Origin: Flavobacterium antarcticum DSM 19726
Lineage (GTDB): Bacteria > Bacteroidota > Bacteroidia > Flavobacteriales > Flavobacteriaceae
Reading direction: 5' to 3'
Length of the DNA: 64,000 nt
NCBI RefSeq assembly: GCF_000419685.1
Contig: NZ_ATTM01000003.1
Coordinates: 186,846 to 250,845, forward strand
A program made the translations under genes and the position numbers. Positions 51,805-55,574 of the stretch are shown here, piece by piece (the first letter of the stretch is position 1; each line of letters opens with the position of its first letter). The notes under the pieces were generated by a model. It ran no database searches, had not been told where the DNA came from, and saw nothing but the letters and a program-made list of their open reading frames with translations.

Positions 51805-52536
51805 ATGAAGTATCCATACATAATTATTGACGACAATCCGCAAGACGTTTTGGAAACGCAGTCCGCATTTGACAGCTTTTCAAACTATTTCTTGTTGGGT
51901 AAAGCTGATAATTATGACGATGCTGTAAATTTAGTTCTAGAACACAATCCAAAATTGATTGTTTTAGAAATTGATCCTGAAAATAAAGAAAGTCGGTTGT
52001 CTTTGGCGCTAATTAACGAATTGCATCGGTTTGTTAAAACAATGCCGCGAATTGTAGTTTTGACTAAAGGAAAAGAGTTGGCTTACGAAGCTTTAAAAAA
52101 TGAAGTTTTCGATTATTTGCTAAAACCACTAAACATTCATGAGTTGCGTAAAACCATCATGAAGTTTGAACGGAATGTGGAAGATACGCCAACTACCATT
52201 TGCATTAAATCCTATGGCGACTACCGATTTGTAGATACTGAAGATATTGTTTATTTGCAAGCGGACAATAATTCGACGGATTTATACATTAATAACGGTG
52301 ACACAATTACTGCTTTCAAAACCTTGAAACATTTTGAAAATACGTTGCCGCCACAATTTGTGAGAATTCACAACAGTTATATCATTAATATGAATTATGT
52401 TTCCCGAATTCATTTGGGAAATAATGTTTGCTACATTAAAAACAGTAAAGTCCAACTCCCATTTTCTAAATCTTACAAGAAAAATGTGGATTTAATTATA
52501 AGTTTGATTTCTAATAATGACTTCAAGGAATTGTAA
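51805..52536 (+). CDS. LytTR-type response regulator with degenerate receiver
   Basis: A 243-residue regulator with a receiver domain (about residues 1-122) and a LytTR DNA-binding domain (about 138-235: YGDYRFVDTEDIVYLQADNN, FVRIHNSYIINMNYV). The acidic pair D9-D10 and the lysine K107 (YLLKPL) are kept, but the phospho-acceptor position in LIVLEID is Glu55 instead of Asp. It therefore probably does not accept phosphate in the usual way, or is held active. No LytS-type kinase adjoins it. A terminator follows the stop codon. Confidence 0.9.
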   Translation: MKYPYIIIDDNPQDVLETQSAFDSFSNYFLLGKADNYDDAVNLVLEHNPKLIVLEIDPENKESRLSLALINELHRFVKTMPRIVVLTKGKELAYEALKNEVFDYLLKPLNIHELRKTIMKFERNVEDTPTTICIKSYGDYRFVDTEDIVYLQADNNSTDLYINNGDTITAFKTLKHFENTLPPQFVRIHNSYIINMNYVSRIHLGNNVCYIKNSKVQLPFSKSYKKNVDLIISLISNNDFKEL

Positions 52537-52592: not shown

Positions 52593-52708
52593 ATAACTGT
52601 TTAACTAAATACAATAATTAATTAAACGCTTTTCAAAATTTCAACTACCCCTCAAAACCATCCATTCACTCACGAACGAGATGCATCTACACAATACCAC
52701 TTTAAATG

Positions 52709-52740
52709 TTTGACTATCAAGTTCTACTGATGTAGTTTTA
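52709..52740 (+). promoter_or_regulatory. Putative promoter for the small secreted peptide
   Basis: TTTG at 52709-52712, a 20-bp spacer and TAGTTTTA at 52733-52740 (seven of eight). It implies a leader of about 60 nt before ATG 52809 and independent expression. Confidence 0.5.
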
Positions 52741-52808: not shown

Positions 52809-52982
52809 ATGAAAAAAGTAATCGCAATCGTATTTGTAATCGCAATCGCAATTTTAGGTTTGTCATCTTACAACACAAATCAAATTAAGAAATCAAGCAA
52901 ATCAGATAATTTGATTGCTGAATTGAAAACTGGTGGTAATGGCGGAGTAGTTATCGGACAAAATAAAAAACTAGATGATTAA
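52809..52982 (+). CDS. Small secreted peptide (57 residues)
   Basis: Begins MKKVIAIVFVIAIAILGLSS, a signal-peptide-like start with a strongly hydrophobic core, followed by a short polar region and the glycine-rich tail LKTGGNGGVVIGQNKKLDD. I do not recognise the family. It has its own promoter-like sequence and a terminator directly after the stop, so it is a complete small gene rather than a chance frame. It sits between a LytTR regulator and a TPR sensor kinase. A signalling peptide or small envelope protein are both possible. Confidence 0.65.
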   Translation: MKKVIAIVFVIAIAILGLSSYNTNQIKKSSKSDNLIAELKTGGNGGVVIGQNKKLDD

Positions 52983-53002
52983 TTCATCGTCAATATAATT
53001 TG

Positions 53003-53031
53003 AAGGACTATCGAAAGATGGTCCTTTTTTT
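53003..53031 (+). terminator. Rho-independent terminator after the small peptide gene
   Basis: AAGGACTATC pairs with GATGGTCCTT (one wobble) around a GAAA tetraloop, followed by seven or more T. It would isolate the peptide mRNA from the kinase mRNA. Confidence 0.9.
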
Positions 53032-53046
53032 ATTGAGATTGTTTCG

Positions 53047-53054
53047 TACTTTTG
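53047..53054 (+). promoter_or_regulatory. Putative -7 element for the sensor kinase
   Basis: TACTTTTG is an exact TANNTTTG match directly after the peptide-gene terminator. It covers the TTG at 53052, so that codon cannot be the start; the TTG at 53076 is left. Confidence 0.5.
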
Positions 53055-53075
53055 ACTGGATTAAATCAATTTTCA

Positions 53076-55106
53076 TTGAAAACTTTCTACTGTCTTTTTA
53101 TAATTATTTCACTATCACTCGCTGCATGTAAAGACGACACGGCAATATCATTAGAAAATGTAAACAATGATAGTTTAAATTTTTACTTTGAAAAAGCAAA
53201 TCAAGAATCTTTAGATTTTAAAAGCAGACATAACGCGGCTGATAGTATAAAGAAAATTATAAGTTCACTTCCGAACGATTCATTAAATCGAAAAAATTAT
53301 TTTAAGCTTGCCAATCGCTACTTTAATATGAATGCGATGGATAATTACAGAGAAACTACTGAATTAATAATTTCTCACGCAACTGCAGCAAAAGACTCAA
53401 CGAGCTTAGCAAAAGCATATAGCTATTTAGGAGATTATTTTGGTAGCAAGTTCGAATCAGAGAAAGCTTATCAAAATTATTTTTTCGCCGAAAAAATTTA
53501 TTCTAAACTACACGATGATTCAAAAGTTGCTAAAACACTTTTAAACAAATCTGTAATTCAATTTAACGAGAAAGATTTTATTGGTAGTGAAAGATCAGCG
53601 ATTAATGCGTTAGAAATTTTAAAAAAAACAAGCAGTGATGAGTTAACATACGAGGCCAATAATGTTCTAGGAGTTATTTATTTCGAGTTGAGTGAATTTG
53701 ATAAAGCTATTGAATATCATAATAAGGCACTACTAATTTTAAAAAAACAAAATGTTCCTTTCGAATTCCAATCAAAAGCTACTTCACTAAATAATTTAGG
53801 AGCCGTTTACCAAAAAAGGAAAAACTATAAAAAGGCATTAGCGTATTATAATGAAAGTTTAAAGTCAAAAAACATTTTCGAAAATAAGGTTTCCTTATAT
53901 GCCACAGTAATTGACAACATTGCCTATTCTAAATTTAAATTAAATGATTTAAATTCTCTACCAGGTTTGTTTTACGAATCTTTAAAAATCAGAGATAGTA
54001 TAAAATATTTTCCCGGTATTGTAGGAAGTAAACTTAATCTTTCAGAGTTCTATGCTTTCAAACAAAACATCCCGCTATCCCAAAAATTTGCAAAAGAAGC
54101 TTATTCATTAGCAAAAGAAAAAAAATTAAGTAACGAAGAATTACTTTCACTTAAGCAACTTTCAAAAGTAGATCCAAAAAACTCTTCCTTCTATTCCTCA
54201 AATTATATTCGAATTAACGACAGCTTACAACTTTCAGAGCGTCAAATTAGAAATAAGCTAGCTCGAATTGAGTTTGAAACAGATGAGCTTATTGAACAAA
54301 AAGACAAGTTAGTGGAACAAAGACAATCCCTGATCTACCTGGGTTTTTCACTGTTGGTGATTGGAATTTTTGTTTATGTGATTCGGATTCAAGCTTCTAA
54401 AAATCGCGAATTATTATTGGTTCAAGAGCAACAAGCGGCTAATGAAGAAATCTATCAACTGATGTTAACCCAACAAGAAAAGGTGGAAGAAGTACGCCAA
54501 CTCGAGAAAATAAAAATTGGCCAGGAATTACACGACAGTATTCTAGGTAAATTATTTGGAACACGGATGGATTTAGGCCGACTCAATTCAAGTACTGATG
54601 CAGAAGATATTGAAAAAAGAACTACTTTTATTGATCAATTACAAACCCTTGAAGGGGAAATCCGCGAAATTTCACACGATTTAAATACAGAGAAAACAGC
54701 CGTTTTCAATAACTTTGTATTAATGGTTTCCAATTTTATTGAAAATCAAAGAACTGCATACGGAACTCTTATTAATGTTGAAAAAGACGAAAAAATTGAT
54801 TGGAATGAACTTGACAACATCACTAAAATCAATTTGTATCGCGTATTGCAAGAGTCATTTCAGAACATAAATAAGTATGCAAATGCATCAAAAATAGAGC
54901 TGAGTTTTAAACTAAAAAACGATGTTTTAGAATTAAAAATTAAAGACAACGGACAAGGTTTTGACGTAAAAAAGAAAAAGAAAGGCATCGGATTAAAGAA
55001 CATGACGAGCCGAATGAAAACCTTAAATGGAACAATGCATATTGATTCGAAAATAGGTAGTGGCACTACCTTATTGTTTAAAGTACCCAAAAACAACCCC
55101 AAATAA
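53076..55106 (+). CDS. TPR-containing sensor histidine kinase
   Basis: A 676-residue kinase. The N-terminus (KTFYCLFIIISLSLAAC) is a lipoprotein-type signal with cysteine near residue 18. Six or so TPR motifs fill about residues 90-330 (for example YEANNVLGVIYFELSEFDKA). A coiled-coil precedes a membrane helix at about 419-438, and a cytoplasmic HisKA_3 domain with His486 in QELHDSILGKLFG leads to the ATPase domain (DNGQGFDVKKKKKGIGLKNM). The TPR part should face the periplasm. No ATG is available for the first 88 codons; TTG 53076 is the best start. The receiver gene follows 6 bp after the stop. Confidence 0.88.
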   Translation: MKTFYCLFIIISLSLAACKDDTAISLENVNNDSLNFYFEKANQESLDFKSRHNAADSIKKIISSLPNDSLNRKNYFKLANRYFNMNAMDNYRETTELIISHATAAKDSTSLAKAYSYLGDYFGSKFESEKAYQNYFFAEKIYSKLHDDSKVAKTLLNKSVIQFNEKDFIGSERSAINALEILKKTSSDELTYEANNVLGVIYFELSEFDKAIEYHNKALLILKKQNVPFEFQSKATSLNNLGAVYQKRKNYKKALAYYNESLKSKNIFENKVSLYATVIDNIAYSKFKLNDLNSLPGLFYESLKIRDSIKYFPGIVGSKLNLSEFYAFKQNIPLSQKFAKEAYSLAKEKKLSNEELLSLKQLSKVDPKNSSFYSSNYIRINDSLQLSERQIRNKLARIEFETDELIEQKDKLVEQRQSLIYLGFSLLVIGIFVYVIRIQASKNRELLLVQEQQAANEEIYQLMLTQQEKVEEVRQLEKIKIGQELHDSILGKLFGTRMDLGRLNSSTDAEDIEKRTTFIDQLQTLEGEIREISHDLNTEKTAVFNNFVLMVSNFIENQRTAYGTLINVEKDEKIDWNELDNITKINLYRVLQESFQNINKYANASKIELSFKLKNDVLELKIKDNGQGFDVKKKKKGIGLKNMTSRMKTLNGTMHIDSKIGSGTTLLFKVPKNNPK

Positions 55107-55112
55107 ATCAAA

Positions 55113-55574
55113 ATGAAGAAAAAAATTCAATTATTAATGGTCGACGACCATCCCTTTATTCTTCAAGCCTACAAAAATACTTTGAATGGTTTTAAGAAAG
55201 ACGAGTACGAGATAATTTGTACTGAAGCGATTTCAGGAAAATCAGGTTATGAAATTATTGAAAATAGCCCTGTCCATTTTGACGTTGCTTTTTTTGACAT
55301 CAGCATTCCCACTTATCCTGAAAAAAATATTGAATCAGGTGTCGATTTAGCAGTACTTCTGCGAAAAAGAATGCCCGAATGCAAAATATTTTTGCTTACA
55401 ATGCACAGTGAAAAATTAAAATTCAAATACTTTTTTGATACCGTGAAACCACAAGGATTAGTCGTCAAAAATGATTTGACTTTTGAAGAATTAATTTATG
55501 CTTTTGAAAAAGTATTAAACGGTGGTACGTATTTAAGCGAAACCGTTCTACAAATGATGGTGGACGATCATTAA
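55113..55574 (+). CDS. Receiver-only response regulator
   Basis: A 153-residue protein containing a NarL-type receiver domain: acidic pair Asp11-Asp12, phospho-acceptor Asp62 in VAFFDISIP, Thr in LLTMHS and Lys in GLVVKND. Partner regulators of HisKA_3 kinases normally continue with a LuxR helix-turn-helix to about 210 residues; here the protein stops after LSETVLQMMVDDH and no HTH coding remains downstream, where the convergent thiL begins. It may relay phosphate to another protein. It is co-transcribed with the TPR kinase. Confidence 0.9.
   Translation: MKKKIQLLMVDDHPFILQAYKNTLNGFKKDEYEIICTEAISGKSGYEIIENSPVHFDVAFFDISIPTYPEKNIESGVDLAVLLRKRMPECKIFLLTMHSEKLKFKYFFDTVKPQGLVVKNDLTFEELIYAFEKVLNGGTYLSETVLQMMVDDH

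Follow-up and report, generated by a model that had tools for sequence, protein, structure and literature searches.

A gene for a putative secreted peptide of 57 residues and the gene for a histidine kinase with a tetratricopeptide repeat (TPR) sensor lie side by side in a 64,000-nucleotide stretch of Flavobacterium antarcticum DSM 19726 (assembly GCF_000419685.1, contig NZ_ATTM01000003.1, positions 186,846 to 250,845, forward strand). This stretch is referred to as the window. A LytTR-type regulator is encoded in front of the pair and a receiver domain behind it. The features of the locus, numbered from the first letter of the window, are as follows.

51805..52536, + strand: LytTR-type response regulator (RR) gene; receiver without phospho-acceptor (E replacing D in LIVLEID); Pfam LytTR 2.1e-18, Response_reg 9.4e-9
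52642..52690, + strand: three direct repeats, CAACTAC / CATTCAC / CATCTAC, of exact 21-bp period; LytTR-box-like by sequence pattern
52710..52740, + strand: promoter-like element TTG-N20-TAGTTTTA ahead of the peptide gene; fits the flavobacterial TTG-N20-TAnnTTT form
52809..52982, + strand: open reading frame (ORF) of a predicted secreted peptide precursor, 57 aa; signal sequence, LIAEL box, glycine-rich tail ending NKKLDD
53002..53027, + strand: intrinsic terminator (GAAA loop) between the peptide and kinase genes; hairpin and T-run
53076..55106, + strand: histidine kinase gene; lipoprotein-anchored periplasmic TPR sensor, transmembrane segment, HisKA_3/HATPase; anchoring and topology predicted
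55113..55574, + strand: NarL-type receiver gene without a helix-turn-helix (HTH) domain; phosphorylation residues intact (Pfam)

The peptide has a signal-like N-terminus (MKKVIAIVFVIAIAILGLSSY) and a glycine-rich tail (LKTGGNGGVVIGQNKKLDD), as described in an initial annotation made from the sequence alone. The kinase is 676 residues long when read from TTG 53076, a start chosen by eye, and its N-terminus (MKTFYCLFIIISLSLAAC) carries a lipobox. The earliest TTG in the ORF, at 53052, is an alternative start. The gap from the peptide stop is 93 nt or 69 nt for the two starts, respectively, matching the roughly 90 bp annotated. The lipobox is followed by a TPR array (TPR_12, 2.2e-22), a hydrophobic segment, HisKA_3 (23.1 bits, slightly below the curated cut-off of 24) and HATPase_c (4.3e-10). 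This layout agrees with the annotated lipoprotein-type TPR array, which is predicted to face the periplasm. The receiver starts 6 nt past the kinase stop and comprises 153 aa. The D, D, D, T and K residues typical of receivers are retained and there is no further Pfam domain, so the reported lack of an output domain was confirmed. The annotated tetraloop terminator was also found, with the stem-loop GGACTATC-GAAA-GATGGTCC followed by a T-run. The LytTR regulator gene and the 21-bp repeats upstream of the peptide gene are additions to that description.

Linkage of the peptide and kinase genes

A short signal-bearing ORF was located directly upstream of 173 of 213 related kinases and of 20 of 334 other genes at the same loci (Fisher P 4e-78), the 20 including two re-encountered peptide-kinase pairs (L067, L080). 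The rule counted an ORF if it began with ATG, encoded 40-140 aa including a basic start and a hydrophobic stretch, and terminated -330 to +90 nt relative to the estimated kinase start. The kinases were sampled from 39 named-relative loci, the best-scoring loci of the same genus together with 60 further regions, the best loci elsewhere in the family and phylum, and 20 regions from other genera. They represent the higher-scoring matches, lower-scoring kinases being left out. Ten of 223 distinct kinases were excluded, four with less than 600 nt of upstream sequence and six with no match to the TPR part. Five loci with doubtful ORFs were removed from the 173 pairs to give 168 for the box analyses. 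Longer partners without repeats were then removed to give 163 for the lipobox, terminator and promoter counts, and removal of duplicates gave 162 for the co-divergence analysis.

Distant FimS-like kinases had an upstream ORF in one case of 24, a doubtful one, or in one of 20 where the match covers the sensor part. These 24 were the loci tested from 30 (four were skipped and two had no ORF), and FimS itself is outside the set. L323, one of the four distant kinases without the sensor part in the match, belongs to the window's genus. Relatives of the window kinase were matched in 59 of 61 genomes of the same genus and, at E <= 1e-45, in 82 of 119 sampled genera of the family. In the phylum sample 21 of 198 genomes matched at 1e-30, comprising 19 from this family and two from other families of the class.

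Seven kinases of this type, the window kinase among them, were found in the F. antarcticum genome. Three have a lipobox (the window kinase, L083 and L085), each with a peptide ORF at most 100 nt upstream. The other four have plain signal peptides (two in L084, L086 and L087) and none has an upstream peptide ORF. Lipoprotein anchoring of the kinase was considered as a requirement for the pairing and dropped because many kinases of other genera with plain signal peptides still have a peptide ORF.

Three recurrent peptide classes were sorted by eye. The window's class has an LIAxL-like box and often a Gly-rich stretch, and comprises the window peptide, L032 (2), L034, L079 (3), L081 and L082. The 'TSF' class begins MKK..LTIGLFSLVMVLTSF and continues with units such as IIGGNATGGNMKLD (six in L115), LVGGASAGGNKKVD (L095) and EIGGRSQVPSF (L124). 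The lipoprotein class carries SC[ST]xD and often a Pro-rich end, e.g. DPPTVIPPKK. No Pfam family was matched by the window peptide, by seven other precursors or by one partner of 133 aa. NCBIfam gave sub-threshold matches only, and no relative was detected in the virus contigs searched.

A profile of the TSF class gave 35 strong matches in 61 genomes (E <= 6.4e-10), all directly upstream of a kinase when kinase positions were compared by eye; 13 of these are rows of the profile itself and 22 are independent. The four remaining genes matched weakly (E 1.2e-4 to 7.4e-4), lie elsewhere and occupy open frames of 162-738 aa. The window class had five matches outside its own genome at E <= 1.5e-4 (G001, G077, G131 and two in G072), all kinase-linked, and a sixth (E 0.04) in the G072 array, likewise kinase-linked; this tally leaves out ten matches of E 0.004-0.033. 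In the two classes checked for off-kinase copies, the TSF and window classes, the peptides lie beside kinases and not mostly away from them.

The peptide-kinase pairing is conserved and specific. The initial annotation had argued a functional link from proximity in one genome, and the counts for related kinases, other genes and distant kinases strengthen it beyond that genome. The arrangement is probably a two-component system with which Flavobacteriaceae sense a pheromone-like peptide autoinducer.

Variations on the arrangement were observed. L079 (G072:C1:709000-724000) holds three tandem peptide-kinase modules with three differing tails, a single LytTR gene in front and a single HTH-less receiver gene at the end. 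Two to four tandem lipoprotein peptide genes (..DPIIIPKKD / ..DPVIIPKKD) occur at about 2900-3950 in L035, L036, L037, L038 and L042. They are followed by one Cys-less peptide gene (..YNPILIIKND or similar) and then a single kinase gene, a case of ligand gene amplification; the L035 array also contains a run of N. Receptor arrays without a nearby ligand gene were seen in L228 (G250:C1:3334500-3350500), where five TPR kinases of the family follow one another directly, none with a small ATG ORF listed in front, and in L049 and L173, with three TPR kinases each. In another subclade some kinases have, in place of a short peptide, a conserved secreted protein of roughly 133 aa ahead of them, containing QSDLxxVIKGGELLLGGLSIFKV (L050:1742-2143, L060:460-862 and L066). 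The L066 copy is split across two frames and the L050 copy has no Pfam match. This protein is perhaps a folded ligand of a sister receptor. A further kind of partner, some 116-126 aa long and bearing a signal sequence, lies just ahead of or overlaps the start of the first kinase in L063, L067 and L125.

Proposed regulation and output of the system

LytTR proteins bind imperfect direct repeats about 21-22 bp apart. Repeats of the strict form C[AG]NYYAC with a 21-bp period were present ahead of the peptide gene at 23 of 79 loci where a LytTR gene was seen and at nine of the 89 others, a locus being counted among the latter when no LytTR gene lay in the sequence stretch examined around it. The strict pattern occurred about 0 times in Markov shuffles and 0-1 times at six other spacings. 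With a weight matrix, trained on sites from the same loci, a pair at period 21 was found at 48 of the 79 loci and at 12 of the 89, compared with 0.8 in each shuffled set; other periods from 18 to 24 gave 0-6 of 79. The window boxes are at 52642, 52663 and 52684, and the last ends 19 nt upstream of the promoter-like TTG. Their layout is that of LytTR sites, which connects the peptide gene with the LytTR regulator encoded ahead of it. A second triple repeat of 21-bp period in the same genome (L262, G000:C3:287225-287294) apparently lies inside a repetitive ORF of 65 aa (HPxxLxDHPxxL).

The flavobacterial promoter consensus is TTG-N20-TAnnTTT. An own promoter-like site had been annotated for the peptide gene, and such an element is present at 52710-52740. 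At the related loci the form gives weak support (19 of 163, compared with 6.9 in shuffles). The sequence TAGTTTTAC recurs in six of eight upstream regions of window-class peptides compared. A hairpin with a T-run, resembling a terminator, lies behind the peptide gene at 109 of 163 related loci, compared with 2.2 after shuffling. In 129 of 213 kinase ORFs no ATG is available ahead of the N-terminal hydrophobic stretch. Given the terminator and the non-ATG starts, production of the receptor is probably lower than that of the ligand.

One common gene order is LytTR - peptide - kinase - NarL-type RR. In another group the RR gene is divergent beside the LytTR gene, and in many loci no LytTR gene was seen. 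The acceptor Asp of the NarL-type RR is retained in 182 of 183 aligned sequences, the remaining one being gapped. At the aligned position of the LytTR regulators D occurs in 4 of 81, E in 55, N in 13 and other residues in the rest. An HTH-less RR of 153-156 aa is encoded in six window-class loci (window, L032, L034, L079, L081 and L082), and the RRs of other loci have at least 203 aa, except those of L067 (157, at the locus edge) and L153 (175). The L083 RR has a GerE HTH (5.7e-6, Pfam), the second RR of L079 is receiver only and the L085 RR has no confident Pfam match. By these comparisons the HTH-less receiver is a lineage-specific loss. The window's clade is thereby left with a phosphorylatable receiver that has no DNA-binding domain and, next to it, a DNA-binding protein that has no phospho-acceptor; these complementary losses suggest that the two may act together.

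No ComQ, AgrB or peptidase-ABC transporter was recognised by eye in the window neighbourhood, in seven loci or in the first ORF behind the RR at 30 loci, no profile search of all neighbours being made. A cluster for a bacteriocin or a ribosomally synthesised and post-translationally modified peptide was rejected as no modification or transport genes were recognised by eye. A signal-sequence protein is encoded behind the RR at L083:6853-7413, L079:14407-14883 and L058, and is a possible output gene.

Predicted peptide export, repeats and co-divergence with the sensor

By a simple rule a lipobox was present in 89 of 163 peptides, and 66 of the 89 have an acidic residue (D or E) at +4. The acidic +4 resembles the surface-export lipoprotein signal described for Bacteroidetes (PMC5080379). 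At the corresponding place the kinase N-termini are more often Lys-rich. The other 74 peptides, including that of the window, have no lipobox Cys. Some peptides may be displayed at the surface, and others, the window's included, may simply be secreted.

These export signals bear on an alternative in which the peptide is no diffusible signal but stays tethered or periplasmic, as a small, frequently lipidated partner protein. It would keep the kinase active or inactive and report the state of the envelope or of lipoprotein export. RcsF and NlpE are reporters of this kind in enterobacteria. Such a role would suit the frequent lipobox with its acidic +4 and the disordered tails in AlphaFold models. 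It is nevertheless unlikely, as 74 of the 163 peptides have no lipobox Cys, tandem units constrained one by one make little sense for a single tethered protein, and the tails of close kinases diversify with the sensor, as in self-recognition. An autoinducer remains the preferred reading.

Tandem units of 11-20 residues were found in 29 of 173 precursors, compared with 0.85 in residue shuffles. Adjacent units differed by 266 synonymous (848 sites) and 36 non-synonymous (2607 sites) single differences, a per-site ratio of non-synonymous to synonymous differences (pN/pS) of 0.04; the units were preselected at >=70% amino-acid identity and only one-difference codons were used. The low ratio argues that many units are old and that each is kept at the protein level, which is expected if each is released as a signal. 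Repeat-coded constrained peptides are therefore present in some lineages.

K-[KR]-x-[DE] was found by eye at or just before the C-terminus in seven of nine window-class peptides, the exceptions being L081 and one of L079. Tails of close kinases were either kept or changed together with the TPR part. The tail is conserved at this locus in that sense, as a functional link would lead one to expect.

Among close pairs, with kinase domains >75% identical (227 pairs in eight groups), tail and TPR divergence were correlated given the kinase domain (r = 0.452). This value was reached by 0 of 2000 within-group permutations (permuted mean 0.206, standard deviation 0.072). The corresponding values were -0.025 for the signal peptide and TPR given the kinase and 0.015 for the tail and kinase given the TPR. 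In the pair L101/L096 identity was 94% for LytTR, 100% for the signal peptide, 48% for the mature peptide, 64% for the TPR part, 97% for the kinase domain and 99% for the RR, and in L100/L091 it was 91% for the TPR part and 84% for the mature peptide; such examples come from 11 chosen pairs. Co-diversification of ligand and sensor between conserved flanks was found among close kinases and was weak across all pairs. A variable cassette flanked by conserved sequence is the appearance of the comQXPA and agr pherotypes.

A number of results weigh against the reading of the peptide as the kinase ligand. The >75% limit on kinase identity was picked after inspecting the data. Over all pairs of the 162 loci (Mantel) the partial correlation of tail and TPR was a weak 0.113, with 0.076 for tail and kinase, and the signal peptide value of 0.182 exceeded that of the tail, so the effect is not tail-specific there. 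TPR identity was 60% in L061/L056 and 35% in L125/L046, yet the mature peptides were 81% and 66% identical, respectively; the L110/L099 TPR parts were 84% identical, yet the mature peptides only 48%. TPR positions in the concave groove, with helices A and B assigned by the analyst from the Pfam TPR position, vary less than other positions (0.236 vs 0.343). The tail and the TPR part are adjacent DNA, so block recombination could alter both. By the ORF rule 40 of 213 kinases have no upstream peptide ORF, and the window's own peptide has no repeats. No LytTR gene was seen upstream at 89 of 168 loci, and in the own genome the box pattern matched 30 times and its reversed control 34 times, with no regulon found. 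An AlphaFold model of the window peptide and TPR domain joined into one chain, with the stops between them read through in the same frame, left the tail disordered and undocked (pLDDT under 50), and in a second such model the L206 repeat units were likewise disordered and undocked. These two models neither support nor exclude peptide binding and were not used as support.

Taken to its end, the recombination argument would make the co-divergence a by-product of block exchange and the kinase link an ancestral synteny without function. The tail, terminator and TPR part are indeed contiguous, and the same neighbour gene recurs behind the system in several loci. Three separate loci of the own genome carry the pairing, however, and elsewhere it adjoins different neighbours. 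Recurrent breakpoints within the peptide gene and where the TPR part meets the kinase domain would call for an explanation, and the units are under purifying constraint one by one. This explanation is accordingly very improbable.

A different objection is that the peptide is an output of the system, such as an antimicrobial or surface peptide, and that the kinase controlling it senses something else. The regulator-type boxes and the promoter-like site ahead of the peptide gene would fit such a product, and small size, secretion, repeats and diversification are typical features of antimicrobial peptides as well. Inspection by eye of the seven loci and of the first ORF behind the RR at 30 loci, however, revealed no recognisable gene for immunity, modification or transport. 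Tail divergence between close kinases also follows the TPR sensor and not the kinase domain, which is unexpected for an unrelated product. An output peptide is considered improbable, and a ligand of the adjacent kinase is preferred.

Proposed mechanism and comparison with known systems

In the proposed mechanism the LytTR regulator encoded just upstream would bind the 21-bp-spaced boxes, which were identified by sequence, before the peptide gene. The peptide gene would use a promoter of its own, and most transcripts would stop at the terminator behind it, giving more ligand than receptor. Sec would export the precursor, lipidated or not, and the C-terminal portion, which in some relatives consists of the tandem 11-20-residue units, would be processed to the mature signal. 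The periplasmic TPR superhelix of the adjacent kinase would sense this signal, in keeping with the linkage and the co-diversification observed among close relatives. The kinase would phosphorylate the NarL-type receiver, in which the acceptor Asp is kept almost everywhere. Elsewhere the receiver is usually full length with an HTH. The receiver of the window's clade has none and so probably works through another protein, the simplest partner being the neighbouring LytTR regulator, a DNA-binding protein without phospho-acceptor that it may contact. We infer export, processing, binding, signalling and heteromeric output from these features.

The broader proposal, held somewhat less firmly but still favoured, is that Flavobacteriaceae share a family-wide, pherotype-rich peptide language. 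Linear peptides exported by Sec, which some lineages encode as tandem units of one precursor, would be sensed by TPR kinases outside the inner membrane, the tail and TPR part would change together as a specificity cassette, and the output would be shared by the receiver and the LytTR regulator. Textbooks treat peptide quorum sensing as a trait of Gram-positive bacteria, and to our knowledge no peptide autoinducer family is known in Bacteroidota. No description of such a flavobacterial peptide-kinase system was found in the literature searched, which did not cover preprints. If the proposal is correct, Bacteroidota would have a peptide pheromone system, and the ligands of FimS-like kinases would have a precedent. 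For over 150 kinases the genome sequence supplies a candidate ligand directly, and pairs that differ in tail and TPR part but have a near-identical kinase domain are ready-made tests of specificity.

The way of working resembles Gram-positive peptide quorum sensing, while membership in those families is not supported. In ComQXPA, AgrBDCA and ComCDE, as here, a small precursor gene adjoins the kinase gene, and the 173 of 213 kinases with a short precursor alongside, exported by prediction, show the same arrangement. A hypervariable ligand-plus-sensor cassette between conserved flanks, LytTR regulators (AgrA, ComE) and repeat-spaced boxes at the ligand promoter are further shared features. The sensor differs, being a periplasmic and often lipoprotein-anchored TPR array here and a polytopic membrane protein in those systems. 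No maturation enzyme or transporter was recognised here by eye, and the tandem-unit precursors, the LytTR receiver without phospho-acceptor and the Gram-negative host also set the present system apart.

The TPR part of the window kinase was modelled by AlphaFold as a superhelix with a predicted local distance difference test score (pLDDT) mostly above 90. Among the best 50 chains from Foldseek the nearest structures were LGN-peptide complexes. Rap appeared from rank 32 and NprR at rank 43 (6t46 7.1e-7, 4gyo 1.2e-6, 5dbk 3.0e-6), and some other TPR proteins also outranked them. The system is therefore similar to the RRNPP regulators (Rap, NprR, PlcR, PrgX, Rgg) in having a TPR superhelix as a putative peptide receptor. 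RRNPP receptors are cytoplasmic, bear no signal sequence, depend on peptide re-import and include no kinase, whereas the TPR part here has a lipoprotein-type signal, is predicted to lie outside the inner membrane and is fused to HisKA_3. The initial annotation had invoked RRNPP-type peptide binding, and the structural likeness and way of working stand while membership in RRNPP does not.

FimS of Porphyromonas gingivalis (NF053520) is likewise a periplasmic TPR sensor kinase. Its authors suggest a small polypeptide ligand and describe the signal as unknown (PMC11053733). The window kinase scored 58.8 bits against the curated cut-off of 600 and was rejected as a member of that family. The distant FimS-like kinases, FimS itself being outside the comparison, also differ in their near lack of an upstream ORF (1 of 24). 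Pheromone precursors of the yeast alpha-factor type belong to a eukaryote, whereas the present system is bacterial with two-component kinase sensing and the window's own precursor is single-unit, but the multi-unit relatives share with alpha-factor the encoding of tandem near-identical signal units in a single secreted precursor.

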